Assembly (NCBI GenBank): GCA_028719205.1
Contig: JAQUKH010000022.1
Coordinates: forward strand, 1-47,700
Direction of reading: 5' to 3'
DNA: 47,700 nucleotides
Origin: a bacterium
Lineage (GTDB): Bacteria > JACRDZ01 > JAQUKH01
Shown here: positions 1,641 to 38,325 of the stretch, one piece after another
Layout: every line of letters begins with the position of its first letter
Position numbering within the stretch: the stretch's first letter is position 1
The notes under the pieces: generated by a model
What the model saw: the letters and a program-made list of their open reading frames with translations, nothing else
What the model was told of the DNA's origin: nothing
Database searches by the model: none
Program-made: the position numbers and the translations under genes

Positions 1641-1710
1641 AGAAGAAAAAAGTCAGAAAAAAACAGAACCACCACCTTTATCTTTTTTTGGAAAAGTGTA
1701 ATATAAAAAA
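1641..1710 (+). promoter_or_regulatory. GTCA-box promoter element, copy 1
   Basis: GTCA lies at 1652-1655 in an A-rich run, followed by ACAGAACC, a CTTTAT/TTTATC -35-like hexamer (1676-1682) and TAATAT at 1699-1704 (spacing 16-17). It resembles copy 2 almost throughout. It sits upstream of the His-rich lipoprotein and the five-gene ketosynthase/radical SAM unit and probably drives all of them. Confidence 0.7.
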
Positions 1711-1746
1711 GGAAATATGAAAATGGAATATAAAAAGGAGGAAAAA

Positions 1747-2121
1747 ATGAATCAAAAAAATTTATTAAAAATATTAAGCATTTTATTTATAGGAATATTT
1801 TTATGCCTGGAAGCAGGGTGCAAAAGCAGTTCAAATTCAACATCTTCCTCCGATACCAGTGGTTTTCAGGTAACATCTTCAGCGACTAACGGCCATACGC
1901 ATTCCGTTACAATATTATCTGCTGACCTTGCGAGTTTACCCGCCGCCGGTGCTACCTATACCAGTACTTCGTCCGGCGGTTCATATTACAGTTCCGGCCA
2001 TACGCATACCATTTTTTTGAGCCAGCAGCAGCTTACGGCAATTAATAGCGGTTCAACAGTTACTGTTACTTCTTCCGTCACTGAATCTCATACTCATGAT
2101 TGGGTGATTACCAAATCGTAA
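1747..2121 (+). CDS. Small lipoprotein with three HTH histidine motifs
   Basis: About 124 residues: a signal peptide with a clear lipobox (EAGC), a Ser/Thr-rich linker, then three spaced copies of a His-Thr-His motif (GHTHSVTI, GHTHTIFL, SHTHDWVI), each starting a predicted beta-strand. Spaced HxH motifs suggest metal binding, but no known family was recognised. The ATG at 1747 follows AAGGAGG (1736-1742) with good spacing; the in-frame ATG at 1717 lacks one. It is the first gene after regulatory copy 1 and is only 22 bases ahead of the adenylating enzyme, so it probably shares the transcript. Whether it is a partner or substrate of the pathway enzymes is unknown. Confidence 0.7.
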   Translation: MNQKNLLKILSILFIGIFLCLEAGCKSSSNSTSSSDTSGFQVTSSATNGHTHSVTILSADLASLPAAGATYTSTSSGGSYYSSGHTHTIFLSQQQLTAINSGSTVTVTSSVTESHTHDWVITKS

Positions 2122-2143
2122 CAAATAAATCAAAAAGGGATCT

Positions 2144-3457
2144 ATGATAGATTTCAGGAAGTATAAAAAAATAGAATTTCTAAAAACCGCGCAAGTTAAA
2201 AATATTCAAAATACTTTATTTAAACAACATTTGAACTATTTAACAAATAATTCACCATATTATTCTAAACTATTTAAAAAACAAAACATTAACATTAATA
2301 AATATTGCCTCGAAAATATAAGTGATTTACCTTTTACCGATAAATCCGATTTTGAAAAATATAACAGTGAATTCCTGGCAGTGCCTTACTCAAAAATATC
2401 TGATATTGTTTTATCCTCAGGAACAACCGGAAAGCCGACAAAAATAATGTATACTGAAAATGATCTTTTACGGCTTGCTTTCAATGAGGAAATTGCTTTG
2501 AAAAGATGCGGCATAAGCCGGGAGGATACGGTTTTATTAACCTGTACCATGGATCGTTGTTTTGTCGCGGGATTGGCTTATTATTCAGGAGCAAGAAAAA
2601 TCGGCGCGAAAACTTTAAGGAACGGCCTTAATAATTTTGAGAGCCACATGGATCTGATCAACAGAATGAAACCTACCGCTGTAATAGGTGTCCCGTCATT
2701 GATGTATAAATTAGGTTTATTTATAAAATCCAGAGGTATAGATCCAAAAGAAACATCAATACGAAAAATGATATGTATTGGAGAACCATTAAGGGACAGA
2801 GATCTTTCCTTGTTAAAAATCGGTGAATATCTTGAAAAAATGTGGAAGGCTGAAATATTTTCAACCTACGCGTCTTCTGAAACTATTACAACTTTTTGTG
2901 AATGTTCCGCTCAAAAAGGCGGGCATATGAATCCGGCCCTGGCCATTATGGAGATAGTAAATGATAAGGGAGAAACACTGCCACCCGGAGTGGCGGGAGA
3001 GATAGTTATGACGCCGCTTTTTATTGACGGAATGCCTTTATTGAGATTTAAAACCGGGGATATCAGTTTTTTTATAGATGCGCCTTGTCCCTGCGGGCGT
3101 TCTTCCGTCCGTATCGGGCCGGTCCTGGGAAGAAAAAAACAAATGATCAAATATTGCGGAACGACATTTTATCCTCAATCCATTAATTCTGTTTTAGACG
3201 GTATTCCGGCAGTTACTGAATATTATATGGTTGTTTCCAGTGATTTCGATCTTTCTGACAAGGTAAAGGTTTATGTTTCAACCAGTGATAAATCTTGTGA
3301 GGTAAATTATATTTCCGAGAAACTTAAGTCACATTTAAGAGTTAAACCTGAGGTTATTCTATCGGCTGAAGAAGACATAAAAAAGCAGGTTTATAACGGA
3401 AACTCAAGAAAACCCGTAAGATTCATAGACGAAAGGAAAACCGCCAATGAATTTTAA
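2144..3457 (+). CDS. PaaK-like AMP-forming acyl/aryl-CoA ligase
   Basis: 437 residues, the usual size for the phenylacetate-CoA ligase (PaaK) branch of the adenylate-forming family. The ATP-binding loop SSGTTGKPTK is clear, as are the later motifs STYASSE and FKTGD, and a CPCGR Cys pair typical of this branch. The C-terminal small domain is present (GRKKQMIKYCGTTFYP). These enzymes activate a carboxylic acid as an acyl-adenylate and pass it to CoA or a carrier thiol; the substrate here cannot be read. It begins 22 bases after the lipoprotein and overlaps the radical SAM gene by 11 bases. I infer that it supplies the starter unit for the ketosynthase pair downstream. Confidence 0.85.
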   Translation: MIDFRKYKKIEFLKTAQVKNIQNTLFKQHLNYLTNNSPYYSKLFKKQNININKYCLENISDLPFTDKSDFEKYNSEFLAVPYSKISDIVLSSGTTGKPTKIMYTENDLLRLAFNEEIALKRCGISREDTVLLTCTMDRCFVAGLAYYSGARKIGAKTLRNGLNNFESHMDLINRMKPTAVIGVPSLMYKLGLFIKSRGIDPKETSIRKMICIGEPLRDRDLSLLKIGEYLEKMWKAEIFSTYASSETITTFCECSAQKGGHMNPALAIMEIVNDKGETLPPGVAGEIVMTPLFIDGMPLLRFKTGDISFFIDAPCPCGRSSVRIGPVLGRKKQMIKYCGTTFYPQSINSVLDGIPAVTEYYMVVSSDFDLSDKVKVYVSTSDKSCEVNYISEKLKSHLRVKPEVILSAEEDIKKQVYNGNSRKPVRFIDERKTANEF

Positions 3458-4613
3458 TAATTGTGTAGTGCCTGAATTTCCAAAGGAAATGATAGAAAAT
3501 GCCATAATAGATAATAATCTTTTGACCATGGAGATTGAGTTTACAAGAGCGTGTAACCTCAATTGTGTGTATTGTTACATGGATAATAATTTGTTTTGTG
3601 AATCCCGCGAATGTGATTTGACAAGAGAGGAATTCCAAAATGTTATTATGCAGGCAAAAGACCTTGGGGTGAAAACTATTGTTGTTCTTGGCGGAGAGCC
3701 TATGTTATATCCATACATCTCTGATATGATAAAATTTATCAGGAAACAGGATTTGTATATAGAAATATTCAGCAATGGAATTAACGTAACCGAATTTAAC
3801 GCGCGATTTCTATTTGAGCATGATGTGACTTTTGTTCTTAAAATGAATACTTTTATTGAAAAACTACAGGATTTAATTTCAGGGAAGGAAGGTACTTACG
3901 CGCAGATCCAGGAAGCATTTAAAAATCTGGAAAATGCCGGGTATCTTAAGGAAAAAAATCTTTTAGGAATAAGTTCGGTTATTTGTAATCAGAATATTGA
4001 TGAAATAGTTAAATTATGGCAATGGGCGAGAGAGCGGAAGATCACTCCCTATTTTGAAATAATTACGCCGCAGGGCAGTGCCAGAGCAAATAATGGATTA
4101 TATATTAATTACAAAGAAATGAAGGACCTGTTTTATATTATTTCCAACATTGACCGTGGGACTTACGGGTATACCTGGGAACCGCAGCCTCCTTTAGTCG
4201 GAATGAAATGCCTCAGGCATCAATATTCGTGCCTGGTAACATCCTGTGGAAATGTGCAGCCGTGTGTGGGAGTAAATATAAAAGCCGGAAATGTAAAAGA
4301 GAAAAGCCTGCGGGAAATAATTAAAAATAGCGAGGTTATACAAAATCTAAGGAATTACCGTCAAACGATAAAGGGCCATTGCGGCCATTGCGTTAATTCG
4401 GATAATTGTTACGGCTGCCGGGGTACCGCTTACCAATTGACCGGAGATTATCTGGCATCAGATCCATTATGCTGGAAAAACGCGGAGAGAGAGAATTATA
4501 TCAAGTCTTATGTCGGAAGAATGCAGGCAAAAAACAGGAATAAATTTGCCGCTAAAAACTATTCAAATGAGGAATACCTTGTCAAAGCTAAACGCGGTAA
4601 TTACTTCTTGTGA
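3447..4613 (+). CDS. Radical SAM enzyme with SPASM domain
   Basis: 388 residues. The radical SAM cluster motif is Cys36-x3-Cys40-x2-Cys43 (CNLNCVYC), followed by the glycine motif GGEP. The C-terminal third carries many Cys (CLRHQYSC, CGNVQPC, CGHCVNSDNCYGC, then a final Cys), the pattern of a SPASM domain that binds extra iron-sulfur clusters. Such enzymes often modify peptides, but some act on small molecules or enzyme-bound groups. It overlaps the ligase before it by 11 bases and the ketosynthase after it by 35, so it is translationally coupled to both. No obvious ribosomal precursor peptide lies next to it, unless the small lipoprotein at 1747 is the substrate. Confidence 0.88.
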   Translation: MNFNNCVVPEFPKEMIENAIIDNNLLTMEIEFTRACNLNCVYCYMDNNLFCESRECDLTREEFQNVIMQAKDLGVKTIVVLGGEPMLYPYISDMIKFIRKQDLYIEIFSNGINVTEFNARFLFEHDVTFVLKMNTFIEKLQDLISGKEGTYAQIQEAFKNLENAGYLKEKNLLGISSVICNQNIDEIVKLWQWARERKITPYFEIITPQGSARANNGLYINYKEMKDLFYIISNIDRGTYGYTWEPQPPLVGMKCLRHQYSCLVTSCGNVQPCVGVNIKAGNVKEKSLREIIKNSEVIQNLRNYRQTIKGHCGHCVNSDNCYGCRGTAYQLTGDYLASDPLCWKNAERENYIKSYVGRMQAKNRNKFAAKNYSNEEYLVKAKRGNYFL

Positions 4614-5727
4614 TATGTTAACAGCATATGGCCTTGGAACAGAGCTGTGCTGGAATGGACTTCTTTCCAAAAAAACAGCAATATCAAAATTGAACAGGTT
4701 TGATACTTTTCCGTTTAAGACTGATTACGCCGCGATTGTTCCGGGGCTTGAGTATCTTAAAAATGATTCTTTGTCCGCGCAAATGTTCAAACTTTTGTTT
4801 CAAGGGAAGAAAGGCCTGATCCCTGAAGATTCTAAGCTTATTCTGGCTACGATCAAAGGAGAAATTGATCTTCTTGAAAAAAACATTCTTGAAAAAAAAG
4901 ATGAATATCCAAAATCCGGATTTAATTCCATGCTGGAAAAACTATCCGTTACCGCAAGAATAAAAGACGGGGGTATGATCATTTCATCCGCGTGCACTTC
5001 TTCTTCAGCCGCGATCGCGATAGCGGGAGCGATGATTCAAAACAGTGAATGTGACAGTATTCTGGTTGCAGCCTGTGATTGTGTTTCAGAATTTGTGTTT
5101 GCCGGGTTTTCATTATTAAACGCATTGGATAAATTCCCGGCTAAACCTTTTGACCGTAATAGAAACGGGCTGACTCTTGGTGAAGGCGCGGGTTTTATTT
5201 TAATAATGAGCGAGTCAAGAGCAAAAAAAGAAAAAAGAAAAATTCTTGGAGTAATTAAAGGTTTTGGATTAAGCAATGATGCCAGCCACATGTTAAGGCC
5301 ATCTCTGGATGGGAACGGTTTAATAATTGCTGTAAGAAAAGCGCTAAGGATGGCAGAAATTAATGAAGAAAATATAAACTTAATTTCTGCTCACGGCACA
5401 GGAACTATTTATAACGATAAAATGGAAATGAACGCTTTTAGCAAAATATTTGAAAACAAAAAACCTGTTTACTCGGTCAAAGGTGGAATTGGCCACACAA
5501 TGGGCGCGGCGGGATTGATAGAAACGATGATAGCGTTAAAATCCTTAAAAGAATCAATTATTCCGCCTACAGTTAACCTGGAAGACGTTGACGAAGAAGC
5601 GAAAGGCTGGGTTTCCGCTTGTGAACGCCCGCTTAACGGGGATAGAACAGTTTTATTAACAAATTCGGGATTTGGCGGAACAAATGCTGCATTGATCCTG
5701 TCCTTACACGATTTGGATAAAAAATGA
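4579..5727 (+). CDS. Beta-ketoacyl-ACP synthase (KAS II type)
   Basis: 382 residues from a TTG start. TTG at 4579 follows GAGGA (4569-4573) with 5-base spacing and places the N-terminus (SKLNAVITSCDMLTAYG) where FabF-type enzymes begin; longer starts would lie deep in the radical SAM gene. The catalytic set is complete: Cys139 (SACTSSSA), His272 (AHGTGT), Lys301 and His306 (KGGIGHTMGAAG). The enzyme should condense an acyl thioester with a malonyl-type extender. It sits between the SPASM enzyme and a ketosynthase-like partner without active-site Cys, the arrangement of a KS-alpha/KS-beta pair in type II polyketide or aryl-polyene-like pathways. No acyl carrier protein, ketoreductase or dehydratase is nearby, so these must come from elsewhere. 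Confidence 0.88.
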   Translation: MSKLNAVITSCDMLTAYGLGTELCWNGLLSKKTAISKLNRFDTFPFKTDYAAIVPGLEYLKNDSLSAQMFKLLFQGKKGLIPEDSKLILATIKGEIDLLEKNILEKKDEYPKSGFNSMLEKLSVTARIKDGGMIISSACTSSSAAIAIAGAMIQNSECDSILVAACDCVSEFVFAGFSLLNALDKFPAKPFDRNRNGLTLGEGAGFILIMSESRAKKEKRKILGVIKGFGLSNDASHMLRPSLDGNGLIIAVRKALRMAEINEENINLISAHGTGTIYNDKMEMNAFSKIFENKKPVYSVKGGIGHTMGAAGLIETMIALKSLKESIIPPTVNLEDVDEEAKGWVSACERPLNGDRTVLLTNSGFGGTNAALILSLHDLDKK

Positions 5728-5748
5728 AGGTTTTTCTGGAGCAGAATT

Positions 5749-6285
5749 ATGGTTTTTATCGGTGGGTTGGGTTTTTCCAAAATAACGTTTAACGCTATAG
5801 GCCTTGCGTTAAAAGATGCCGGGATGAATTGTCAATCAATACCCGGGCAGGATATCGGCATTATCGGTACAAATACCTCAGGATGCGTAAATTCAGATAT
5901 CGATTATTTAAATAATTATTTAAATGCTGGCCGGAATTCATACCAGAAAAAACTTTTTATTCATACCATGCCCTCCAGTTTCTTAAGTGAATCAGCGATT
6001 TATTACAAATTCCAGGGGCCTGTATTTTACATGACTATGTTAGACAGGTCATTAGCAGGGGCGGTAAAAATAGCATCCAATATGATTGAACTCGGAGAGG
6101 CATCTATTATGCTTGCGGGCTCATCAGAAGAAGAAAATTCATTGTATTTTGTTCTTGGCAGGGGAGCTTCTTTCCCCCGGGGAATCGTATGCGATATTGG
6201 TAAAGCTGAATTTATCTTTAACAGGAATCTGAATTTTCCTGAAATGGCAGAGGAGTTTCAAAAAATCAGGAAGGAGAAGAATTAG
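5749..6285 (+). CDS. Ketosynthase-like protein lacking the catalytic Cys (chain-length-factor-like)
   Basis: 178 residues, equal to only the N-terminal half of a ketosynthase. Recognisable pieces are VFIGGLGF at the start, DIGIIGTNTSG, MPSSFLSESAIYYKFQGP and the helix AGAVKIASNMIELGEA. Where an active enzyme has ACTSS, this one reads MTMLDRS, so the nucleophile is absent. The C-terminal half with the His residues is also missing. Most likely it is a non-catalytic partner of the full ketosynthase ending 21 bases upstream, similar in role to a chain-length factor, or a member of the short ketoacyl-synt_2 group. GGAG lies 8 bases before the ATG. The radical SAM gene begins on the base after its stop codon. 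Confidence 0.7.
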   Translation: MVFIGGLGFSKITFNAIGLALKDAGMNCQSIPGQDIGIIGTNTSGCVNSDIDYLNNYLNAGRNSYQKKLFIHTMPSSFLSESAIYYKFQGPVFYMTMLDRSLAGAVKIASNMIELGEASIMLAGSSEEENSLYFVLGRGASFPRGIVCDIGKAEFIFNRNLNFPEMAEEFQKIRKEKN

Positions 6286-7599: not shown

Positions 7600-7668
7600 A
7601 GTAGAAAAAAGTCAGAAAAAAGCAGAACCATCACCTTTATCTTTTCCCGGGAAAGTGTAATATAAAAA
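7600..7668 (+). promoter_or_regulatory. GTCA-box promoter element, copy 2
   Basis: GTCA at 7611-7614, AGCAGAACC, a CTTTAT/TTTATC hexamer (7635-7641) and TAATAT at 7658-7663. It begins directly after the TAA of the upstream radical SAM gene and precedes the b/c cytochrome fusion by about 25 bases. It is nearly identical to copy 1. Confidence 0.7.
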
Positions 7669-7689: not shown

Positions 7690-8457
7690 ATGTCAATATT
7701 TTATTTGAAATCTATCTTGTCAATTGTGCTTCTTGCGGTTGCCATGATTTCCATGTTTACCATGTTTGAAATATTCGGGAAAAGCGAGAAGAAATATAAT
7801 ATCGAAAAACTCAAAAAGTTCCATAGAATAAACGGCCGTATATATATTATAATATTTTTATTTATATCCTATTATTGTATTAACTCGATGATGGCTTCAA
7901 AGGCGGAACTTTCTTCCCGTGGGGCTTTTCATAGCGTGTTTTCTCTGGCTGTAATAGTTCTCTTTGCCCTTAAACTTTCCTATATCAGGATTTACAAGCA
8001 ATACTATGGAAGAGTGCAGATGATAGGCCTCTTAATTGCTTTGCTGACTTTTGGCATGATGGGGACTTCCGGGGCGTATTTTCTTCTCGTTACAAAATTT
8101 GGACAAGATAGAACGTTCGAAGAGATCATGGAATATAAAACTAAAAGCCCTCAGGCTGTCAAGGGAAAAGAAGAAAAAATAACAGCAATAAGGACGGATC
8201 CTGAAAGTATCGGCAAGGGGAAAAACCTTTTTGACGCAAAATGCAGTTTCTGTCATGATCCATATGATATAAAATTCATTGTCGGCCCCGGGCTTAAAGG
8301 TATATTGAAAAATCCTGAACTCCCCATAAGCAAAAAACAGGCAAATGCTGAGAATATAGTTCATCAATTAAGAGAGCCTTTAAGCCAAATGCCGTCCTTT
8401 AACTATCTTTTGAAAGAAGATATAGAGAATATAATCGCTTTTTTGAATACTCTTTAA
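7690..8457 (+). CDS. Membrane b-type domain fused to cytochrome c
   Basis: 255 residues. The first ~140 residues hold four hydrophobic segments with His residues near membrane edges (FHRINGR and FHSVFS), as in small di-haem quinone-reacting b-type proteins. A linker leads to a class I cytochrome c domain with Cys185-x2-Cys188-His189 (CSFCH), a GPGLKG loop and a probable Met ligand in SQMPSF. I infer that the membrane part takes electrons from quinol and passes them to its own c haem in the periplasm. Regulatory copy 2 lies just upstream. The glucoamylase gene starts 12 bases later, so both may be co-transcribed although their functions look unrelated. Confidence 0.72.
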   Translation: MSIFYLKSILSIVLLAVAMISMFTMFEIFGKSEKKYNIEKLKKFHRINGRIYIIIFLFISYYCINSMMASKAELSSRGAFHSVFSLAVIVLFALKLSYIRIYKQYYGRVQMIGLLIALLTFGMMGTSGAYFLLVTKFGQDRTFEEIMEYKTKSPQAVKGKEEKITAIRTDPESIGKGKNLFDAKCSFCHDPYDIKFIVGPGLKGILKNPELPISKKQANAENIVHQLREPLSQMPSFNYLLKEDIENIIAFLNTL

Positions 8458-10716: not shown

Positions 10717-12246
10717 TTATTGTTTCTTTTTTTTCGGCAGATTTACTGAAACTTCTGTTCCCCTGCCAGTTTCGCTTTCAATATTTATTGTGCCGGAATG
10801 GAGGCTTATTATCTGAAAGCAAACTGAAAGCCCAAGCCCGGTACCTTTGGATTTGGTTGAGAAAAACGGTTCAAATACTTTTCCCAGATTATCTTTGCTT
10901 ATTCCAACTCCGTTATCTTTGATGCAGACTTTAAGCAGATTGTCATTGTCATAAGCTTTTATTTCTATCAAGCCGTCAGGTTCTGAAACAGCGTCATGCG
11001 CGTTATTCAGCAGATTAATAAATACCTCTTTTATCTGGAAAGGGTCTGATTCAATAAAAATATTTTTTATCGGTTCGAGTTCTTTTTTTAATAAAACTTT
11101 TTTCTTGGATATTTTTTTTGAATCCTTAATACATTCGATAAGGATCTCGTAGAAATTAAAATTCTCATAATTCGGCATTCTGATCTTAGAGTAAAACAAA
11201 AGATTATTAATGATTTGTTCGCTTTCAACTATTTTATTTTCAATATTATTTAAGGAACGTTCCGCTGATGGGTCCAGAATTTTTCTTTTGAGATTGTAAA
11301 CTGCCATTAATATAGTATTCAAAGGATTTCTAAGTTCATGTGCCACGGTCGCGGCCAGGGTGCCTATGTCTGAAAGCCTCTTGGCTTTATCCAGTTCTAT
11401 CCGGGTTATCATTAATTCCTGAGACCTCTCTTTGACCATTCTTTCAAAAGTTTCTTTATCGCGTTTCAGGATCTCCTCGGCCTGTTTGCGTTCGGTAATA
11501 TCAACCGAAAAACTTATTACCCCTATAATATTGCCTTGAGAATCGCGGTAAGGAATCTTATCCGTCTGGATGAAACGCGTCTTATTATTAATTATCGCGG
11601 TTTCAGTAATATCCATCTTTGGTTTACCTGATCTTATTACTTCCAAGTCTTCCTTCCAGTAGGCTTCAGCCTGTTCCCTGGTATAAATTTCAAAGAGAGA
11701 TTTACCTTCCAATGCCTTTTTAGACATTCCCATCATTTTACTGAAAGCTTTATTTACCCGCAGTAAGCGGTTTTCTTTGTCCTTATAAAAAATCCAGGAA
11801 GGCACGGAATCAAGAATGATTTGCAGTTCCTCCTGCTGTTTGGCAAGCACTTCTTCGATGTGTTTCCGTTCAATCGCGTATTTTATGCAGCGTTTAAGAG
11901 CATCTGTATTTATTTTCCCCTTTACAAGATAGTCAGCCGCTTTGCATTGTAAAGATTCTATCGCCAGATTTTCATCGTCAGCTCCAGTCAGGATAATAAC
12001 CGGAATATCCGGCATCAGCTTGACAATCTCTGTAAGGCCCTCAAGGCTGCGGCTGTCCGGCAGGTTAATATCCAGTAATACAGTGTCGAAAACTTCTTTC
12101 TCCAATTTTAAAATGCCGCCGGCCAAATTGTCCGCGTGAGTAATTTTAAAATAAGGATTCACGCAGTGCCTGAGTAATTCCCTGACAATTCTAATGTCTG
12201 CCGGATTATCTTCGATAACAAGTAAATGAATTTCACTTTTTTCCAT
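10717..12246 (-). CDS. Receiver-PAS-histidine kinase
   Basis: 509 residues. A receiver domain comes first (acidic pocket EDN, phospho-acceptor Asp59 in LLDINLPD), then a PAS domain (about 140-255), a coiled stretch, the dimerisation helix with phospho-acceptor His303 (AHELRNP) and an ATPase domain (DNGVGI, GTGLGL). No membrane segment is present, so it is cytosolic. Having the receiver at the front suggests that another kinase phosphorylates it. It is the last of three minus-strand signalling genes and has a shorter paralogue without PAS at 37066-38244, with the same receiver and the same kinase core. Confidence 0.9.
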   Translation of the reverse strand: MEKSEIHLLVIEDNPADIRIVRELLRHCVNPYFKITHADNLAGGILKLEKEVFDTVLLDINLPDSRSLEGLTEIVKLMPDIPVIILTGADDENLAIESLQCKAADYLVKGKINTDALKRCIKYAIERKHIEEVLAKQQEELQIILDSVPSWIFYKDKENRLLRVNKAFSKMMGMSKKALEGKSLFEIYTREQAEAYWKEDLEVIRSGKPKMDITETAIINNKTRFIQTDKIPYRDSQGNIIGVISFSVDITERKQAEEILKRDKETFERMVKERSQELMITRIELDKAKRLSDIGTLAATVAHELRNPLNTILMAVYNLKRKILDPSAERSLNNIENKIVESEQIINNLLFYSKIRMPNYENFNFYEILIECIKDSKKISKKKVLLKKELEPIKNIFIESDPFQIKEVFINLLNNAHDAVSEPDGLIEIKAYDNDNLLKVCIKDNGVGISKDNLGKVFEPFFSTKSKGTGLGLSVCFQIISLHSGTINIESETGRGTEVSVNLPKKKKQ

Positions 12247-12253: not shown

Positions 12254-12703
12254 CTATTCCTTTGGCGGAAGCTTTACTATTGTAAGCCAGAAATCCTGAA
12301 TAGCCCTTGCTACCCTGGCGAATTGTAAAAGGTCAATGGGTTTTGTGATAAAACAGTTAGCGTGAAGATTATATGATTTTATTATATCCTCTTCCGCCTT
12401 GGATACCGTGAGAACTACCACGGGGATCATTTTCAGTTTGTCGCTTTCTTTTATTTCCTTGAGGACTTCTCTCCCGTCAATTCTCGGCAGGTTCAGGTCC
12501 AGCAATATAAGGTCAGGCCTTACCGCGTTTGAATATTTTCCCCGCCTGTGAAGAAAATTGAGCGCTTCTTCACCGTCACTTACGACCTGAACATTGTTGC
12601 ATATTTTTTCTTGTTTCAAGGTTTCGATCGTAAGCCTCACATCAGCCGGGTTGTCTTCCACTAGAAGAATTTCTATGGAATTAACATGATTTCCGTTCTT
12701 CAT
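12254..12703 (-). CDS. Single-domain response regulator (Rcp1-like)
   Basis: 149 residues: a lone receiver with acidic pocket VEDNPAD, phospho-acceptor Asp69 (LLDLNLP), the switch Thr (VLTVS) and Lys (ITKP). The inserted loop [12 protein letters not shown] is typical of Rcp1-like regulators that work with PAS-rich kinases. ATG at 12703 (minus strand) follows AAAGGAGG, so I rejected the longer start 60 bases upstream. It overlaps the end of the 1261-residue kinase gene by 23 bases, so they are coupled, and this is likely that kinase's direct phosphate acceptor. The output is unknown, since no DNA-binding domain exists. Confidence 0.88.
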
Positions 12704-16578: not shown

Positions 16579-16643
16579 AGTGGTGAAAAGTCAATAAAAA
16601 ACAGATTCAGCCAATAGATATATTTTTCATAAAATATATAATT
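16579..16643 (+). promoter_or_regulatory. GTCA-box promoter element, copy 3 (diverged)
   Basis: GTCA at 16590-16593, ACAGATTCAGCCA, then TAGATA (16615-16620) and a perfect TATAAT at 16637-16642 with 16-base spacing. The -35 hexamer is less conserved than in other copies. It lies 21 bases ahead of the phosphoribosyltransferase start. The rest of the 16467-16663 gap is AT-rich and must also hold the minus-strand promoter of the kinase, which I could not pin down. Confidence 0.6.
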
Positions 16644-17290: not shown

Positions 17291-17353
17291 TGGAAATAAG
17301 TCATAAATAAGCAGACTCCGGCCATTTACATTATTTAAAAAAATAAATAATAT
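17290..17353 (+). promoter_or_regulatory. GTCA-box promoter element, copy 4
   Basis: GTCA at 17300-17303, AGCAGACTCCGGCCA, TTTACA at 17325-17330 and TAATAT at 17348-17353 (17-base spacing). It starts at the TAG of the phosphoribosyltransferase gene and serves the pentahaem cytochrome that begins 20 bases downstream. Confidence 0.75.
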
Positions 17354-17372
17354 TATGTGGGAGGATGTTATT

Positions 17373-20687: not shown

Positions 20688-20747
20688 AAATAAGTCATAA
20701 AAAAGTAACTAGGTGCCATTTACACTTTAAGGGAATTATAATAATAT
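20684..20747 (+). promoter_or_regulatory. GTCA-box promoter element, copy 5
   Basis: The upstream stop codon TAG (20685-20687) is part of the element, GTCA lies at 20694-20697, TTTACA at 20719-20724 and TAATAT at 20742-20747 (17-base spacing). The next gene's ATG is at 20754, about where transcription should start, so the mRNA may be leaderless. Confidence 0.75.
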
Positions 20748-24201: not shown

Positions 24202-24250
24202 AAAGAGGATTCAGCCAATTTACATTTTTTTACTTTCTTTATAAGATAAC
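24187..24250 (+). promoter_or_regulatory. GTCA-box promoter element, copy 6
   Basis: The end of ligD, including its TAA (24199-24201), lies within the element. GTCA is at 24194-24197, TTTACA at 24219-24224 and TAAGAT at 24242-24247 (17-base spacing). It serves the superoxide reductase operon that starts at 24286. Confidence 0.72.
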
Positions 24251-24285: not shown

Positions 24286-24678
24286 ATGGCAGATTTCAAA
24301 GAATTATTCCAGTCCGCTGATTTCAAGAAGGAAAAACATGTTCCTCTGATAGACGCGCCGGATAAATTTAAAAAGGGAGATCTTATTAAAGTTACGGTTA
24401 CTGTCGGCAAGGAAATAGCTCACCCGAATAAAACCGAACACCATATCCGGTGGATCGACGTTTATTTTCACCCGCAGGGAGAAAAATTCCCCTGCCATAT
24501 CGGCAGGTCGGAATTTAATGCCCATGGAGAATCCGCCCAGGGGCCTGATACAAGTTCAATATATACTCATCATGAAGTCACCTTAAGTTTTAAGACAGAA
24601 AAACCCGGGATCATTTACGCGTCCAGTTATTGCAATATTCATGGATTGTGGCAGAGTTCAAAAGAGTTATCTATGTAA
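24286..24678 (+). CDS. Superoxide reductase, neelaredoxin (one-iron) type
   Basis: 130 residues. The five iron ligands are in place: His18 (EKHVP), His46 (AHPN), His52 (HHIRW), Cys116 and His119 (CNIHGLW), with the active-site Glu16/Lys17 pair. There is no N-terminal desulforedoxin domain, so it is the class II type. It reduces superoxide to peroxide in the cytoplasm with electrons usually from rubredoxin; a membrane-anchored rubredoxin is encoded downstream in the same direction. AAAGGAG precedes the ATG. Regulatory copy 6 is upstream. A second, exported version fused to a cytochrome lies at 30896. Confidence 0.92.
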   Translation: MADFKELFQSADFKKEKHVPLIDAPDKFKKGDLIKVTVTVGKEIAHPNKTEHHIRWIDVYFHPQGEKFPCHIGRSEFNAHGESAQGPDTSSIYTHHEVTLSFKTEKPGIIYASSYCNIHGLWQSSKELSM

Positions 24679-30789: not shown

Positions 30790-30854
30790 GGTAGAAAAAA
30801 GTCAATAAAAAGCAGAATCAACACCTTTTTTTCTCAAAATAAAAAGTGTATCAT
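30790..30854 (+). promoter_or_regulatory. GTCA-box promoter element, copy 7
   Basis: TAG at 30792-30794, GTCA at 30801-30804, AGCAGAATCAACACC, a T-run in place of the -35 hexamer, and TATCAT at 30849-30854. It starts 31 bases after the repressor's stop and serves the cytochrome-superoxide reductase fusion at 30896. Confidence 0.65.
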
Positions 30855-30895: not shown

Positions 30896-31504
30896 ATGAA
30901 AAAAGTATTTAGTTTAAAGTTATTTATCGCCTTATTGTGCCTGTTTTATTCAAGTATTGCACATGCTGAATCTTTGGAAACATCAAAAGCGGATAAAAGT
31001 TTATTTGAAACGAAATGCTCTTATTGCCATGAGATCGAGAGGCCTCTTTCAAAAAGAAAAAACAAGGACGGATGGACGGCTACAGTAAAAAGAATGCAGT
31101 CTAAAAATCCTTCTCATATAAGTGATGCGGAGGCAGAAAGTATCATTGCTTATTTATCGTATGAAAGAGGAGAAGAAGCGCCTGTTAACAGGATCAAAGA
31201 CCCTTCTAACCTTTCAGAGCTTGAGAAAAAACATGTCCCGGTAATTCAAATCGGGTCTGGAGATGTTGAGAAAAAAATTGTAACAATTACCGTGAAAGTT
31301 GGAGAAGTACCGCACCCGATGGAGGCAACACATTATATAAAATATATTGAACTTTTTATTGATGGTAAATCAGCCGGGAAAGTTGACCTCAAACCGGGCG
31401 ATAAACCGGAAGCAAGTTTTAATGTGTCCGGAGCGGCGGGTAAACGCGTTACCGCGCGTGAGGAATGTAATCTTCACGGCCTGTGGGAAGGCGAAGCCAG
31501 ATAA
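30896..31504 (+). CDS. Exported cytochrome c-superoxide reductase fusion
   Basis: 202 residues. A signal peptide (to AHA, about 24) leads to a small cytochrome c domain with Cys41-x2-Cys44-His45 (CSYCH) and a probable Met67 ligand. From ~105 a full one-iron superoxide reductase domain follows: His113 (EKKHVP), His140 (PHPM), His146 (THYI), Cys191 and His194 (CNLHGLW). The spacing of the five ligands equals that in the cytoplasmic enzyme at 24286. The haem would pass electrons straight to the catalytic iron in the periplasm, replacing rubredoxin. AAGGAG precedes the ATG and regulatory copy 7 lies upstream. I recall haem-containing superoxide reductases in Geobacter-type bacteria but cannot verify this here. 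Confidence 0.9.
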
Positions 31505-31637: not shown

Positions 31638-32369
31638 ATGCCGGATAAAATATTAATTGTGGATGATGATGAAGCTTTCAGGTCGGAGTTTAAAGAATTA
31701 TTTGATTATTATGATGTAATAGAGGCTTCGGATGGACAATCCGCTTTGAAATTATTAAAGTCGGCAAATGATATCGGCCTTATTCTTCTGGATGTAATGA
31801 TGCCGGGAATAAGCGGTATCGAGGTTTTAAAAGAGATAAAAAAGACGGATCCGGATGTAGGAATTGTGATTTTAACAGGTTATAGTTCAAAAGACTTGGC
31901 GATCAAGGCATTAAAAGGGCATGCTGATGATTATATTGAAAAACCGATAGACCTCAATAAAACAAGAGAAATTATTGAAAAGGCGTTTGAAAATAAACGG
32001 GGAGAAGATAAGATAAATACAGGAGATATACCGGGCAAGATAGAAAAAGTAAAAAGTTTTATTAAAAGGAATTGTTATAAAAAAACATCTTTAACAGATG
32101 TGTCTAAAGCAGTTTGTCTCAGTCCGAAATATTTAAGCAGAATATTTAAAAACAGCACTGGTGTAAACTTTATCGAATATAAGTTGAGAATAAAAATGGA
32201 AAAGGCAAAGGAGCTTCTGGTTAAAACGGGTTACAACGTGAATCAGATCTCGGATAAATTAGGATATGAGAACGCTGAATCTTTTATCAGGCAATTCAAT
32301 AAACTTGCAGGTTCTACTCCCACGGAATACCGGAGGAAATATTTAAAAAAGAAAAATAAAAAGTTATGA
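31638..32369 (+). CDS. Response regulator with AraC-type DNA-binding domain
   Basis: 243 residues. The receiver (1-120) has the acidic pocket VDDD, phospho-acceptor Asp52 (LLDVMMPG), Thr (LTGYS) and Lys (EKP). The C-terminal ~100 residues are an AraC double helix-turn-helix: SLTDVSKAVCLSPKYLSRIF and NVNQISDKLGYENAESF followed by FNKLAGSTPTEYRR. It is the only receiver-coupled DNA-binding protein in the window and is coupled by a 4-base overlap to a sensor kinase. I suggest it as a candidate activator of the ten-copy GTCA element, because AraC-type proteins bind direct repeats about one helical turn apart; this is inference. Confidence 0.92.
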   Translation: MPDKILIVDDDEAFRSEFKELFDYYDVIEASDGQSALKLLKSANDIGLILLDVMMPGISGIEVLKEIKKTDPDVGIVILTGYSSKDLAIKALKGHADDYIEKPIDLNKTREIIEKAFENKRGEDKINTGDIPGKIEKVKSFIKRNCYKKTSLTDVSKAVCLSPKYLSRIFKNSTGVNFIEYKLRIKMEKAKELLVKTGYNVNQISDKLGYENAESFIRQFNKLAGSTPTEYRRKYLKKKNKKL

Positions 32370-34567
32370 AGAAAAGGTCAATAGAAACAAAAGATAAATT
32401 TATCAAAGAAAAAAAGCAAATCCAAAACGCGTTAAAGCAAGCTGAAGATAAATACCGTTCTATTGTTGAAACCGCCCAAGAGGGTGTATCGATTGTTAAT
32501 ATTGATGGAAAGGTCACATACGTGAATAAACGTATGGTAGAAATGTTAGGTTATACGGAACAGGAAGTGATCGGAGTATCTTTTTTAAAGTTTCTGGATG
32601 AGAAAGAGCAGACATATATTCAGGAAAATTTAGAACGAAGAAAAAGAGGAATCAGGGAGAGGCGTATTTTTAAAAAAGACGGTTCATCTCTCTGGGCGCT
32701 TGAATCTATCAGTCCTTTATTAGACGCGAATGGCAAAGTAAATGGACAGCTTATAATGATCACGGATATTACTGAGCGCAAAAAGGCGGAGGAAATACTT
32801 AGAAGAACAAACAATGAACTGGAATCCAAAACGAATCAGTATACGGCTGAATTGGAGGAAAAAAATAAACAACTGCAGAAGGAGGTCCAGGAGCGTTATT
32901 ATATGGAAAAACGCATTCTGGCGAGTAATACGATACTTAAATTATTGACTACATCATCCTCATATGGTAAATACCTGAATTCTGTAATTAAATATATACG
33001 TAACATAACTAATTGTAAATGTGTGGGTATAAGAATATTAAATGAGAAGGGGCAGATCCCATTTGAATCGTATATGGGTTTAAGCCAGGGATTTTGGGAA
33101 TCGGAAAACTTGCTTTCAATAAATAAAGACCAGTGTGTTTGTATCAGGGTAATTACAGGGAAGCCAAAAGTTCAAGATATTAAAGTGACGAGCCATGGCG
33201 GGTCATTTTATTGTAACCACCTAATAAAATTCATTAATGAACTTTCTGATGAAGAAAGAGCTGAATTCAGGAACGCGTGTGTCAAACATGGGTTTCATTC
33301 AATTGCCGTTATCCCGATCAACTACAAAAATAAAATATTAGGGGCAATACATATCGCGGATGAAAGAGCGGATATGGTACCTTTGAAGATAATAGAGATT
33401 ATTGAGCCATTAACACCTATGATCGGTGAAGGTGTTTACAGGTTCAGCCTGGATGGCAGGCGGGCTGAGGTTGAAAAAAAATTACGTGAGTCAAACGCGA
33501 TATTAGAAACAATATTCAGCAGCGCCAATTTTTTAATCGCTTATATGGACCAATATTTTAATTTTATCCGTGTTAACCAGATTTACGCGCAGTTACAGGG
33601 ATATACTCCTGAGTTCTTTACAGGGAAACATTACTTTGATCTGTACCCGGGTGAAAATGAAAGATCAATCTTTGAAAAAGTGGTTAAAACCGGCGAAGGA
33701 TATTCGACTTATTCCAAACCTTTGGGATCGGAAGGACAGCCCGGGCAGAAAATTACTTTTTGGGATTGGAGCATCCAGCCGGTAAAAGATTCCCATGGTA
33801 AAGTTAAAGGGCTTGTTTTCTGTTTGATAGATGTTACTGAACGGAAACGCGCTGAAGAAGAATTGATAAAGGCTCAAAAAAGAGAAATTGAATCAAAACG
33901 ACTTTCTGACATAGGCACTCTGGCCGCGATGGTTGCCCATGAATTACGTAATCCCCTGGGAGTAATTCAAATGGCCGCGTATAATATAGGTAAAAAATCC
34001 AAGGATGCATTTCTTAACAGCCATATAACAAATATAGAAAAAAAGGTATCAGAAAGCAATCAGATCATTAATAACCTTTTAAGCTATTCACGGATAAGAG
34101 TGCCGCACATTGAAAAAATAAATATTTTGAACTTGCTGGATGAATGCGTTAATTTAGCGGGGAAAAGATTTTTTAATTATGAAGTCACGGTTAACAGGAA
34201 TTTTAATTTGTTAAAAGAAGAATTTATTGAAGCGGATCCAATTCAGATGAGAGAGATTTTTATTAATATTTTAAATAACGCTTATCAATCCTTACCGGAA
34301 AAAAAAGGCAAAATAGAGGTAAATGCCGCGCGAAATGGTAATGACATTATTAATATAAACATTAAGGATAACGGGTGCGGGATAAACAAAGAAGATCTGC
34401 CAAAAGTTTTTGACACGTTTTTTACAAAAAAATCAAAAGGAACAGGTTTGGGACTTACTATTTGTAAAGAATTAGTGGCTATGCATGGCGGCGATATATA
34501 TATCGAAAGTGAACCCGGGGAAGGCACAAATATTAATATAAATCTGCCAATAAGAGGAAAGATATAA
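32366..34567 (+). CDS. Cytosolic PAS-GAF-PAS histidine kinase
   Basis: 733 residues and no membrane helix. Order: coiled start, PAS (about 28-150), coiled coil, GAF-like domain (about 185-365) with a Cys pair (CVCIRV), second PAS (about 375-500), dimerisation helix with His525 (AHELRNP) and ATPase domain (DNGCGI, GTGLGL). GAF and PAS domains suggest a soluble, perhaps redox or small-molecule signal. The start overlaps the REC-AraC stop (ATGA) and its end overlaps the next regulator by one base, so the three form a tight operon: kinase, transcription factor and accessory receiver. Confidence 0.92.
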   Translation: MKKRSIETKDKFIKEKKQIQNALKQAEDKYRSIVETAQEGVSIVNIDGKVTYVNKRMVEMLGYTEQEVIGVSFLKFLDEKEQTYIQENLERRKRGIRERRIFKKDGSSLWALESISPLLDANGKVNGQLIMITDITERKKAEEILRRTNNELESKTNQYTAELEEKNKQLQKEVQERYYMEKRILASNTILKLLTTSSSYGKYLNSVIKYIRNITNCKCVGIRILNEKGQIPFESYMGLSQGFWESENLLSINKDQCVCIRVITGKPKVQDIKVTSHGGSFYCNHLIKFINELSDEERAEFRNACVKHGFHSIAVIPINYKNKILGAIHIADERADMVPLKIIEIIEPLTPMIGEGVYRFSLDGRRAEVEKKLRESNAILETIFSSANFLIAYMDQYFNFIRVNQIYAQLQGYTPEFFTGKHYFDLYPGENERSIFEKVVKTGEGYSTYSKPLGSEGQPGQKITFWDWSIQPVKDSHGKVKGLVFCLIDVTERKRAEEELIKAQKREIESKRLSDIGTLAAMVAHELRNPLGVIQMAAYNIGKKSKDAFLNSHITNIEKKVSESNQIINNLLSYSRIRVPHIEKINILNLLDECVNLAGKRFFNYEVTVNRNFNLLKEEFIEADPIQMREIFINILNNAYQSLPEKKGKIEVNAARNGNDIININIKDNGCGINKEDLPKVFDTFFTKKSKGTGLGLTICKELVAMHGGDIYIESEPGEGTNININLPIRGKI

Positions 34568-34965
34568 TGCCTGCTAAAATATTTATAATTGATGATGATA
34601 AAGAATTATGTGAGGAAGTAATAGAGATCATGAGAGATGAGGGATATTTGATAAGCGCTGAATATGATGGTTTAAAGGGAAAAGAAGCGGTTGAAAAAGG
34701 TGGATATGATCTTTTGCTTTTAGATCTTAAACTTCCCGGGTTAAGCGGGTTTGACGTTCTTAAGCAGATAAGAGAAAAAAATATCAGGATAAAAGTTATC
34801 ATAGTAAGCGGAAGGCCTCAATATAACGGTTTATTTAACGAGAATGCAGTTTGTAAAAACAAGGATAAGGAAGAAGAAGAAATCCTGAAATTAGCAGACG
34901 GAATTATCAGCAAGCCTTTTGAGATAAAAATAATGTTGAATAAAATTAAAGAGCTTTTAACTTAA
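34567..34965 (+). CDS. Single-domain response regulator
   Basis: 132 residues, one receiver: acidic pocket IDDD, phospho-acceptor Asp53 (LLDLKLPG), Ser (VSGRP) and Lys (SKPF). An inserted loop (CKNKDKEEEEILK) before the Lys is unusual. The ATG shares one base with the stop of the kinase gene. It probably acts as a phosphate sink or relay for that kinase. Regulatory copy 8 follows about 40 bases later. Confidence 0.85.
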   Translation: MPAKIFIIDDDKELCEEVIEIMRDEGYLISAEYDGLKGKEAVEKGGYDLLLLDLKLPGLSGFDVLKQIREKNIRIKVIIVSGRPQYNGLFNENAVCKNKDKEEEEILKLADGIISKPFEIKIMLNKIKELLT

Positions 34966-35005
34966 AATTATTTGTTATCTGCCTTCCATCATCTCTCCTT
35001 CTATT

Positions 35006-35068
35006 GAGAAAAAAGTCAGAATAAAGTAGAACTATCATCTTCATTTTAATGTAAAAAAAGTTTATTAT
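35006..35068 (+). promoter_or_regulatory. GTCA-box promoter element, copy 8
   Basis: GTCA at 35015-35018, AGTAGAACTATCATC, TTCATT at 35040-35045 and TATTAT at 35063-35068 (17-base spacing). It lies 26 bases ahead of the second pentahaem cytochrome. Confidence 0.7.
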
Positions 35069-35094
35069 TAAAATCAAAAAGGAGATTAACTTTT

Positions 35095-36573
35095 ATGAGG
35101 AGAATTATATTTTTAACTTTAATAATATGTTTTATTATTTCATCCTTTATTTTTGCTGACGAAGAAGAAATAATAGTAGAAGAAACAACCGGACAGGAAT
35201 TAATAGAAATGCCGGTGAAAAATGAAATTAAAGAAAGTCCGGTGGAATACGAAAAAGATTTCTTGGATTTTATAAAATTAAGAACGGAAAAGTTTGCTGA
35301 GCAGGATATGTGCGGGGAATGCCATTCTGATATATTTAAGCAATGGAAAGGTTCAACACACAGCAAAGCGTTTATTGATCCAATTTGGCGCGCGGCGACA
35401 AAACTATTTTACAGTGAATCTAAAACGATAGGGCAGGTCCTTGAAATTAAACTCTGCGTAAATTGTCATATACCGCTTGGTTTCACTTCTAATATTATTA
35501 ATCTTCCTATTGATAATTATAATAGATTAATGGAACTTCCGGAACAGGGGGCTTTCTGTAACTGGTGTCATAATTTAAAGGAGGCAGTAAATATTGGCGG
35601 TGAAGGATATATGGACGCAGATACAACAGAAGCGTATTCATCAACAATGCTTGGTCCTCGTGATGACCCAAGGTGGGAAAATCCTTCAAAAGATAACAAA
35701 GCTTTTCATCCTTCAGAATATTCAGAGTTTTACTCAAAATCCGATTTTTGCGGATTATGCCATAATATGTATCAGCCGGATAATAAACTTCCTATAGTGC
35801 AAACTTATGATGAGTGGAAGAAAAGTCCATATAACACAAACGACCCTAAAACTACTGTAACCTGCCAGGATTGCCATATGAGGCAAAAACCGGGAATTCC
35901 TGCCACAGGAAGCACGTTAAGGCCTGATAATTCAGGACAAGCGGCAGACGGAGGCCCGTACAGGGATAACATTTGGACGCATTATTTCGCGGGAGGAAAT
36001 TCAATAATTCCAAAACTTTTAGGGAGCGAAATGCATTCTTATCTGGCTATCGAAAAGCTCACAAATTCGGCCGGATTAGAGATAATCAGGGATAGTTCTT
36101 ATGAAAAAGGTAAAGCATCACAGATAAAAGTCAAAGTTACTAATTCCGGCGCGGGACATTATTTGCCGACAGGTATGACCGCGATCAGGCAAATGTGGCT
36201 TGATATGAAAATTACAGACCGGGATGGAATTATGATCTTCAGGTCCGGCGCGATGGATAAAGAAGGGAATTTTGACAAAAATACAATTCTCTTTAACACT
36301 GTTTTTGGAAATAAAAACGGAGAACCTGTAATGAATTTCGCGCTTGCGGATAAAATTCTTTATGACCATAGAATTCCTCCTATGGAATCTGTTATTGAAA
36401 ATTACAGTTTTATTATTCCGGAAAATACAGTTTTCCCGCTTAAGGTTGAAGTTATTTTAAAGTATCGCACCGCGTCACCGGACTTTGTTAAAAAGCTTCA
36501 AGTTGATAAAGTCTCGAATACAGAAATTCCCGTTATTGATATGGTAAGTTTGACGGAAAAAATAGATTTATAG
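35095..36573 (+). CDS. Periplasmic pentahaem cytochrome, second paralogue
   Basis: 492 residues. A signal peptide (to about residue 20) precedes an acidic linker and five CxxCH motifs in the same order as in the protein at 17373: CGECH, CVNCH, CNWCH, CGLCH, CQDCH. The haem-free C-terminal beta domain is also kept (GAGHYLPTGMTAIRQMWLD), but a short stretch near the C-terminus of the other copy (after the FxKxL motif, about 30 residues) is missing here. Both copies sit behind a GTCA element, which argues for duplication together with the promoter or for shared control. Role: electron transfer in the periplasm; substrate unknown. Confidence 0.85.
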   Translation: MRRIIFLTLIICFIISSFIFADEEEIIVEETTGQELIEMPVKNEIKESPVEYEKDFLDFIKLRTEKFAEQDMCGECHSDIFKQWKGSTHSKAFIDPIWRAATKLFYSESKTIGQVLEIKLCVNCHIPLGFTSNIINLPIDNYNRLMELPEQGAFCNWCHNLKEAVNIGGEGYMDADTTEAYSSTMLGPRDDPRWENPSKDNKAFHPSEYSEFYSKSDFCGLCHNMYQPDNKLPIVQTYDEWKKSPYNTNDPKTTVTCQDCHMRQKPGIPATGSTLRPDNSGQAADGGPYRDNIWTHYFAGGNSIIPKLLGSEMHSYLAIEKLTNSAGLEIIRDSSYEKGKASQIKVKVTNSGAGHYLPTGMTAIRQMWLDMKITDRDGIMIFRSGAMDKEGNFDKNTILFNTVFGNKNGEPVMNFALADKILYDHRIPPMESVIENYSFIIPENTVFPLKVEVILKYRTASPDFVKKLQVDKVSNTEIPVIDMVSLTEKIDL

Positions 36574-36633
36574 TGAAAAAGTCAGAAAAAAGGGGAAGCA
36601 GCCAATTTACATTTTTTTTAAAAAGTATATTAT
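36571..36633 (+). promoter_or_regulatory. GTCA-box promoter element, copy 9
   Basis: The cytochrome's stop TAG (36571-36573) begins the element. GTCA is at 36581-36584, TTTACA at 36606-36611 and TATTAT at 36628-36633 (16-base spacing). It drives the receiver gene at 36673 and probably the coupled kinase. Confidence 0.72.
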
Positions 36634-36672
36634 ATTAAAAAAATCAGAATCAAAAAGGAGAAGAAAACTATT

Positions 36673-37038
36673 ATGAGAAAAAAAGTGATGATCATAGATG
36701 ATGACAAGGTATTTTTAGAGGAACTTAATGAGGTTCTAATTTCAGGCGGATATGATGTTGTTACTGTTAATGATCCGGTTTTAGCTTTTAATATGGTTGA
36801 TAAAACAAAACCGGATGTTATTCTGGTCGACATGAAAATGCCTTCGATGAGCGGGTTTGAAGTCGCGAATGAATTAAAAAATTTTTTAGGATATGATTTT
36901 ATCCCTATTATAGGGATGAGCGGATTTTATAGAGATAACGACATATCGTTAATGAATATGTGCGGTATTCAAAAGTGCCTTAATAAACCGTTTCGTCCGT
37001 TAGATGTAATTTATAATATTGAGAAAGTAATGGGATGA
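36673..37038 (+). CDS. Single-domain response regulator
   Basis: 121 residues, one receiver: IDDD, phospho-acceptor Asp53 (LVDMKMPS), Ser (GMSGF) and Lys (NKPF). It follows copy 9 with AAAGGAG ahead of the ATG. The receiver-kinase gene starts 27 bases after the stop, so the two probably form an operon and a phosphorelay. No output domain exists. Confidence 0.87.
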   Translation: MRKKVMIIDDDKVFLEELNEVLISGGYDVVTVNDPVLAFNMVDKTKPDVILVDMKMPSMSGFEVANELKNFLGYDFIPIIGMSGFYRDNDISLMNMCGIQKCLNKPFRPLDVIYNIEKVMG

Positions 37039-37065
37039 GATATTATCCCCGCCGGTGACAATCTT

Positions 37066-38244
37066 ATGAAAAAGGAAGATATTAACACTCTAGTCGTCGA
37101 GGATAATCCCGGGGATCTCAGGCTGGTCTCTGAGATGCTTCGGGAGAGCCGCATACCGGTCTTTCGCGTTACACATGCCGGTACATTAGAGGATACGCTG
37201 AAGATACTTGGCAAGGAGAAACCGGATATCATATTGCTCGATCTGGATCTTCCTGACAGCTGCGGACTTGAGAGCTTAAGGGAGATTGTTAAGCTGGCGC
37301 CGTGGATTCCTATTGTTGTATTGACCGGTGTGGATGATGAAAATTTGGGGATCGAGGCAATACAGAACCAGGCCTCCGATTATCTGGTAAAAGGGAAAAT
37401 AAATGTAGGCATGCTTGTGCGAAGTATAAGATACTCCATGGAACGGAAGGTAATGGAAGAAGTTTTAAGAAGAGACAGGGAGATGCTGGAAAAGCTTGTA
37501 AATGAAAAAGCCCGGGAGCTTTTAAACGTTCAGAAAGGGATGGAACAAGCTAAACGCCTTACCGATATAGGCACGCTCGCGGCAACAGTCGCCCACGAAT
37601 TGCGCAATCCCCTGGCGGTGATAAACGTTGTATCCTATAATCTGAAGCGGAAAATAAATGATCCCGATCTTAAAAAGCAAATTCATATTATTGAAAATAA
37701 AGTAATGGAGAGTGATCAGATCATAAATAATCTCTTATTTTACTCCCGGTTGAGAAAACCCTTCTTTGAAAATGTTAATATTCAAAAAATACTCAGCGAG
37801 GTTATCGAGTTAATTAAATTCGATACGAAAAATATTAAAAAAGCCAGGATAACCGCGAAATGTGATCCCATAATGAATACTGCGTTTGAGGCCGATCCTT
37901 TACAGCTGAAAGAGCTTTTTATCAATATTGTGAACAATTCTTTTGACGCGCTAGCCGATAAAAAAGGCGCGATTGAAATTATTGCCAAGCCTGATATTAA
38001 TAAGAACGGCGCTTTAATTTATATTAAGGATAACGGATCAGGGATAGACAGTGAAAATTTAAGTAAGATCTGGGAACCGTTTTTTTCCACAAAGTCCAAG
38101 GGAACAGGGCTGGGATTGAGTGTGTGCCGTCAGATCATCCTTCTTCACAACGGGACTATAGATATAAAAAGTGAAAAGGGAAAGGGTACAACCGTGATCG
38201 TTGGATTACCATGTAAACAGATTTTTTTCAGGAATTCATCATAA
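37066..38244 (+). CDS. Receiver-histidine kinase
   Basis: 392 residues: a receiver (Asp59 in LLDLDLPDS), a short coiled coil, dimerisation helix with His177 (AHELRNP) and ATPase domain (DNGSGI, GTGLGL). It is cytosolic and has no sensor domain of its own, so its input is likely phosphorylation of its receiver. It is a close paralogue of the kinase at 10717-12246 without that protein's PAS domain, with the same Asp position and matching segments such as DYLVKGKIN. It is more GC-rich near its start than its neighbours. Confidence 0.9.
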   Translation: MKKEDINTLVVEDNPGDLRLVSEMLRESRIPVFRVTHAGTLEDTLKILGKEKPDIILLDLDLPDSCGLESLREIVKLAPWIPIVVLTGVDDENLGIEAIQNQASDYLVKGKINVGMLVRSIRYSMERKVMEEVLRRDREMLEKLVNEKARELLNVQKGMEQAKRLTDIGTLAATVAHELRNPLAVINVVSYNLKRKINDPDLKKQIHIIENKVMESDQIINNLLFYSRLRKPFFENVNIQKILSEVIELIKFDTKNIKKARITAKCDPIMNTAFEADPLQLKELFINIVNNSFDALADKKGAIEIIAKPDINKNGALIYIKDNGSGIDSENLSKIWEPFFSTKSKGTGLGLSVCRQIILLHNGTIDIKSEKGKGTTVIVGLPCKQIFFRNSS

Positions 38245-38261
38245 TTTAAAGAAATAATAAA

Positions 38262-38325
38262 ACGGAAAAAAGTCAGAAGAAAGTGGCATTAGCCAATTCA
38301 CATTTTTCAGGAGAAAGCTTATTAT
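38262..38325 (+). promoter_or_regulatory. GTCA-box promoter element, copy 10
   Basis: GTCA at 38272-38275, TTCACA at 38297-38302 and TATTAT at 38320-38325 (17-base spacing), with AGCCA before the -35 hexamer as in copies 3, 6 and 9. It precedes the zinc-ribbon gene by 70 bases, a longer leader than in the other copies, and perhaps serves the cytochrome after it as well. Confidence 0.7.

Follow-up and report, generated by a model that had tools for sequence, protein, structure and literature searches.

The window analysed here is a stretch of 47,700 nucleotides (GenBank assembly GCA_028719205.1, contig JAQUKH010000022.1) from a bacterium of a small phylum (four genomes compared here), which indicates a candidate lineage as its source. 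Ten copies of one promoter-like element are found in it, and it is confirmed that these repeats are real gene-control sites, part of a set of about 33 in the genome. The element probably serves as operator plus promoter for a stress regulon under two-component control, run by the response regulator encoded at 31638-32369 together with the adjacent kinase. This regulator, in which a receiver domain is followed by an AraC-type DNA-binding domain, is most probably the protein that binds the box, as judged from co-occurrence and linkage.

The copies are located by the G of a GTCA word, which serves as position 0 of the box numbering and lies at 1652, 7611, 16590, 17300, 20694, 24194, 30801, 35015, 36581 and 38272. 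A first-pass annotation had proposed ten copies with a -35-like hexamer 25 bp from this G and a TATAAT-like hexamer after another 16-17 bp, and every copy is indeed present where it was placed. The ten-copy matrix comprises 41 columns (-8 to +32) and holds 38 bits of information. When each copy is left out in turn, the scores range from 19.6 to 51.4 bits, against at most 4.4 bits for the best non-member on either strand of the window and 10.5 bits for the best first-order Markov random sequence. The -35-like hexamer starts at exactly +25 in 10/10 copies, and in most sites of the genome 16-17 bp separate it from the -10. A strict pattern (AAGTCA-N20-24-TTKACA-N15-18-TATAAT) finds no match because the hexamers vary, and an Rfam scan of the window returned no RNA family. 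A plus-strand gene follows all ten copies, in a window with few minus-strand genes.

All copies are read on the plus strand. Copy 1 (1642-1705), a tandem operator with -35 and -10, precedes a lipoprotein-like gene and an operon with AMP-binding, radical SAM and ketosynthase genes. Cytochrome genes follow copy 2 (7601-7664, before the DUF6529/cytochrome c gene 7690-8457), copy 4 (17290-17353, multihaem, 17355-18899), copy 8 (35005-35068, multihaem, 35095-36573) and copy 10 (38262-38325, a small cytochrome c, 38648-39070). Copy 3 (16580-16643) lies before a phosphoribosyltransferase gene (16664-17290), and copy 5 (20684-20747) before a small ORF that is followed by Ku and LigD. Copy 6 (24184-24247) overlaps the last bases of ligD and precedes a desulfoferrodoxin/superoxide reductase gene (24286-24678). 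The seventh (30791-30854), referred to below as copy 30801, stands before a cytochrome-superoxide reductase fusion gene (30896-31504), after which the candidate regulator is encoded. Copy 9 (36571-36634) is followed by genes for a receiver-only protein (36673-37038) and a REC-kinase (37066-38244). Copies 7, 9 and 10 are conserved in G001, a genome of the same genus.

Using a sequence-only covariance model built from the ten window copies alone, the 2.59-Mb genome was searched and 23 further sites were found outside the window. Nineteen of these 23 are non-coding and lie no more than 250 bp upstream of a gene on the same strand (p about 1e-23; 4% of positions qualify as background, under a crude gene call). 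The outcome that would have spoken against a regulon, sites mostly inside genes, was not seen. A second cluster occupies the first 24 kb of contig C8; three sites are found on contig C14, two each on C3 and C24, and single ones on C1, C6, C7, C9, C11, C18, C29 and C43. After refinement, the set contains 33 sites in the genome, eight of them in C8. The existence of the element, its spacing and its placement across the genome are established by direct computation. Box pairs on opposite strands, 21-40 bp apart, are observed at L044:12433/12454 (C8), L168:8146/8180, L176:6873/6894 and L048:9989/10029, some of them before divergent genes. Where the two boxes are separated by 21 bp, they may together make up a single, larger operator that is shared.

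The nearest downstream genes include a group with defence functions: two superoxide reductases, ferritin, Hsp20, cyclopropane fatty-acid synthase (CFA synthase) and Ku-LigD. Further members are the phosphoribosyltransferase, glyoxalase-like, PhnB-like, Bax-inhibitor-like and pyruvate-ferredoxin-oxidoreductase-like (POR-like) genes, a dienelactone hydrolase, a TTHB210-like gene, PEP-CTERM and outer-membrane proteins and several cytochromes. By its predicted functions, this is a general-stress and oxygen-defence set with additional respiratory members, which agrees with the stress or respiratory-switch regulon that had been suggested from the window alone. Many dispersed stress operons are found under one box, as in a general stress regulon, with about 33 sites.

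The genome-wide consensus reads G(-10)[TC][GA]GAAAAAA G(0)TCA[AG]WAAAAA G(11)[TC][GA]GAWTCA GCCAA(20/21), with the -35 at 25 and a TATAAT-like -10. The GTCA box of the first-pass annotation is real, and the element begins about 10 bp further upstream than described there, at the G[TC][GA]GA word. Constraint is strongest at G and C columns of the boxes, ahead of the -35. This bears on a rival reading, in which the element is the ordinary housekeeping promoter with an A-rich UP element, or a promoter for an alternative sigma factor, and works without a separate activator. Such a promoter would account for the -35/-10-like hexamers at their constant distance and for A-tracts that look like UP elements. 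It is nevertheless improbable, as only about 33 strong copies occur in 2.59 Mb, the strongest constraint falls on box bases outside the hexamers, and the box is kept before orthologous genes and is linked to a DNA-binding regulator.

To derive the internal symmetry of the box, the column profile of 58 sites was autocorrelated. The peak is found at lag 21 (z 2.7, p 0.006, a value that is modest on its own because 25 lags were examined), with smaller peaks at lags 20 and 10. Lag 11 contributes little (z 1.3, p 0.10), so that the 11-bp direct repeat of AAGTCA and AAGCAGA, noted in the best copies by the first-pass annotation, is reduced to a minor periodicity. The reading that suits the sequence best is a tandem of two 15-bp units, GTGGA-N5-GTCAA and GTGGA-N4/5-GCCAA, 21 bp apart. 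In the sites of the own genome, the second unit stops at the predicted -35 hexamer or runs one base into it. With a transcription start placed about 7 bp beyond the -10, the units would lie near -70/-56 and -49/-35. The class I position near -60 that had been proposed for the activator is replaced by a 21-bp tandem that abuts the -35, in an AraC/XylS class-II-like arrangement.

A binder of the winged-helix type (PhoB, OmpR or ArcA), acting through direct repeats of about 11 bp, was also considered. The 11-bp step in GTCA-N7-GTGGA would suit such a response regulator, and GTCATAAA resembles a PhoB half-site. However, the repeat analysis prefers 21 bp to 11, and the lag-11 value gives no support for 11-bp direct repeats of one half-site, as in PhoB/OmpR-type operators. 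This alternative is regarded as unlikely; the phyletic comparison covered AraC-type regulators. What is found instead agrees with the AraC/XylS family: asymmetric direct repeats stand in tandem with a step of about 21 bp, and the proximal one abuts or overlaps the -35 (itself a predicted hexamer). A variant form of the promoter-proximal half is also observed in three genomes, where CA[CT]CTTTATC replaces GCCAATTTACA, mostly before electron-transfer genes (cytochromes, the cytochrome-superoxide reductase operon, POR-like and flavodiiron genes). It occurs at 1652, 7611, 30801 and 35015 in the window and at C8:6820, L165:3933, L174:1845 and L172:6712, and may represent a separate affinity class.

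Conservation was examined in four genomes of the phylum: the own genome (G000), G001, a member of another family (G003) and G002. The refined model R2 gives 34 matches in the own genome, 14 in G001 and 13 in G003, and none in G002; the genomes of other phyla included in that search yielded at most short partial matches. In both G001 and G003, the sites are followed by orthologues of the genes that stand behind the box in the own genome. Additional downstream genes in these two are flavodiiron and CoA-disulfide-reductase-like genes (named from NCBIfam matches) and rubredoxin-like, OsmC-like and AhpD-like genes (named from reading the sequence). Computed over ten pairs of promoters from orthologous genes, identity amounts to 64-83% in the box versus 16-51% in the 43 bp above it. 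With this footprint-like conservation in two relatives, added to the genome-wide search, the placement before genes and the gene set, the candidate regulon of the first-pass annotation is strongly supported. The same data make it scarcely credible that the copies are a dispersed repeat, i.e. mobile or recently duplicated DNA, as ten similar copies on one contig and a second cluster in C8 might suggest. The flanks are unrelated, the copies diverge outside the constrained columns, their positions relative to the promoters are fixed, and the box is retained by orthologous genes across families. MraZ-like repeats were also considered, with no search aimed at them, and were dropped once the AraC link emerged.

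For the protein behind the box, left unnamed in the first-pass annotation, the window offers a strong candidate. The response regulator at 31638-32369 (plus strand) combines a receiver domain (PF00072) with an AraC-type double helix-turn-helix (HTH_18, PF12833, matched over 2-80 of 80 positions, E 2e-23), and its gene comes second behind copy 30801. Among the solved-structure matches of its DNA-binding half are YesN and another two-component response regulator (6swi). Two HTH_18 proteins, this response regulator being one of them, are present in each of G000, G001 and G003 and none in G002, which matches the presence and absence of the motif. In all three genomes the regulator gene is situated on a motif-bearing contig. 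In G001 it lies between two motif sites, among superoxide dismutase, rubredoxin-like, flavodiiron and WrbA genes; in G003 it is flanked by a flavodiiron gene and by a rubredoxin-like gene that bears the motif. The motif-linked regulators have their predicted recognition helices, KYLSR.F and ESFIR.F, in common, and these are altered in two paralogues without a box.

Directly downstream, on the same strand, a probable partner histidine kinase is encoded (32366-34567), with PAS domains, a Cys-rich GAF-like segment and HisKA/HATPase domains; a receiver-domain protein follows (34567-34965). The order of regulator and kinase is kept in G001, where the kinase is likewise trailed by a receiver gene. 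The GAF-like segment carries conserved cysteines (C.C, SFYCN and a later C) in four regulator-linked kinases from two phyla, in G000, G001, G201 and G202 (window 32366-34567; L165:4380-6188; L260:10817-14440; L259:10103-13726). The kinases of G067 and G234 do not contain it. As far as can be read from the sequence, the segment could possibly act as a redox or metal sensor. It is from gene order only that we infer phosphotransfer from the 32366 kinase to the regulator.

The association of regulator and box is also found outside the phylum. G067, from a different phylum, encodes a full-length relative of the regulator (52% identical), and 4/6 genome-wide pattern matches lie within about 25 kb of it, a count that is partly circular because the pattern was written from diverged copies beside the gene. 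In this second phylum, the regulator is present in 8/45 genomes. The R2 motif occurs in 6/8 of these versus 3/37 without the regulator (p 2.5e-4, genomes being counted as independent, though related, in all tests on this phylum). The three matches in regulator-less genomes are partial and lack the first box; their exclusion, decided after seeing the data, gives p 3e-6. Furthermore, a box is found no more than 220 bp upstream of the regulator gene in 5/11 cases, where 1.6% would be expected for each (p 5e-7). The matrix for this test was made from own-genome sites alone, and its 12.5-bit cut-off was set after these sites had been seen. The motif accompanies the AraC-type regulator in both phyla and is found at the regulator's own promoter, which also argues against the PhoB/OmpR-type binder discussed above. 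A literal repeat is seen in G201 and G202, where a second GTCA, in the downstream half, follows the first at exactly 20 bp. A box is also observed before a CRP-like regulator gene in both (L260:14848 and L259:14131, respectively), which suggests a regulatory cascade; in G202, the CRP-like gene is followed by a receiver-only protein that resembles window 36673-37038.

Another AraC-family protein, a regulator of about 316 amino acids encoded near gyrA, shares part of this pattern, being present in G000, G001 and G003 and absent from G002, as is the motif. However, its surroundings contain no box copy (best 6.6 bits), and the tested genomes of the second phylum hold no full-length relative, only partial matches at the level of the helix-turn-helix, with none in G206, G234, G235 and G236. 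It was rejected as the binder on these two grounds and is a very improbable alternative to the regulator at 31638-32369.

Several observations weigh against that regulator. In G000, G001 and G003 no motif copy stands immediately before its gene, and the 134-bp gap before the gene in the window may hold a promoter of its own. The co-occurrence in the first phylum covers four genomes only. Some regulator genes of the second phylum (G233, G235 and G206, one on a short contig) have no box upstream, and the second box B is poorly formed in the window copies that belong to the CA[CT]CTTTATC subclass.

In the proposed mechanism, the PAS/Cys-rich-GAF kinase would presumably phosphorylate the regulator, which would then bind the box as two subunits in tandem. 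Each subunit would place one helix-turn-helix on box A and the other on box B. The promoter-proximal site would abut a weak -35 hexamer, followed by the TATAAT-like -10, and RNA polymerase would be recruited in the manner of XylS and AraC. As a result, oxygen- and general-stress genes would be expressed more, probably including the regulator's own operon via copy 30801. We infer that the regulator binds directly, activates rather than represses, is phosphorylated by the adjacent kinase and answers to an oxygen or redox signal; the 21-bp tandem form, the conservation and the association with the regulator are established by direct computation.

For AraC, the sites lie 21 bp apart. The two 15-bp repeats that XylS binds at Pm each combine a box A with a box B at a distance of 6 bp (PMC5481539). 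Both Pm and the AraC operator araI1-I2 likewise present two tandem asymmetric 15-bp sites (box A plus box B) that abut the -35, at 21 bp from each other in Pm (PMC5481539). At PmtlE of Pseudomonas fluorescens, MtlR binds two 15-bp direct-repeat blocks at -72/-58 and -50/-36, beside a poly-A tract (PMC4514859), positions nearly equal to those proposed here. Since unit spacing and positions match the XylS and MtlR sites, the geometry is that of an AraC/XylS-family activator with its second site against the -35. The candidate differs from XylS and AraC in its receiver domain, which replaces the ligand-binding domain, in its box words (GTGGA/GTCAA instead of TGCA/GGTA) and in the number of promoters it would serve (about 30 rather than one pathway). 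MtlR, in turn, responds to sugar and regulates one operon. In domain layout, the closest parallels are XydR of Clostridium cellulolyticum, whose binding and activation were tested experimentally (PMC3572039), and YesN: both have a receiver domain, a C-terminal AraC-type helix-turn-helix and an adjoining kinase. XydR, however, controls genes for polysaccharide degradation and leaves its own gene unregulated. A limited literature search did not find a multi-promoter stress regulon under an AraC-type response regulator. The regulons of PerR, OxyR and RpoS/SigB comprise overlapping target classes (superoxide reductase, flavodiiron protein, ferritin, Hsp20, CFA synthase, WrbA and OsmC). These are under other classes of regulator and operator, whereas an AraC-type two-component regulator is proposed here.

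Other features of the window lie around the regulon. In the operon behind copy 1, with its AMP-binding and radical SAM genes, the parts of a ketosynthase domain are split over the neighbouring ORFs 4510-5727 and 5749-6285. On the minus strand, in the middle of the cluster, a REC-PAS kinase (10717-12246) and a 1261-aa multi-PAS dCache kinase (12681-16466) are encoded without a box. A Fur-family gene, a FeoB-like gene and an iron-dependent repressor/FeoA protein (39685-42799) adjoin the cluster, also without a box copy. The nearest sequences to the organism's cytochrome come from Nitrospirota and Desulfobacterota; no motif copy was found with the relatives from named genomes, so these provide no evidence of conservation.

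With this element, a lineage with few sequenced genomes, four of them compared here, gains a complete and testable circuit that consists of an operator, a promoter layout, a regulator, a kinase and about 30 target operons. AraC-type response regulators are best known from sugar use, and the present data suggest that one can act as a global regulator of oxygen and stress responses in anaerobes. More broadly, with slightly less than even confidence, one AraC-type two-component system, its Cys-rich GAF kinase serving as redox or metal sensor, may take the role of RpoS, SigB or PerR over a general oxygen and stress regulon in uncultured candidate phyla, and regulator, kinase and operator code may have been kept together across phyla or moved between them. 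As the operator code is readable across two phyla, stress regulons there become predictable from sequence.

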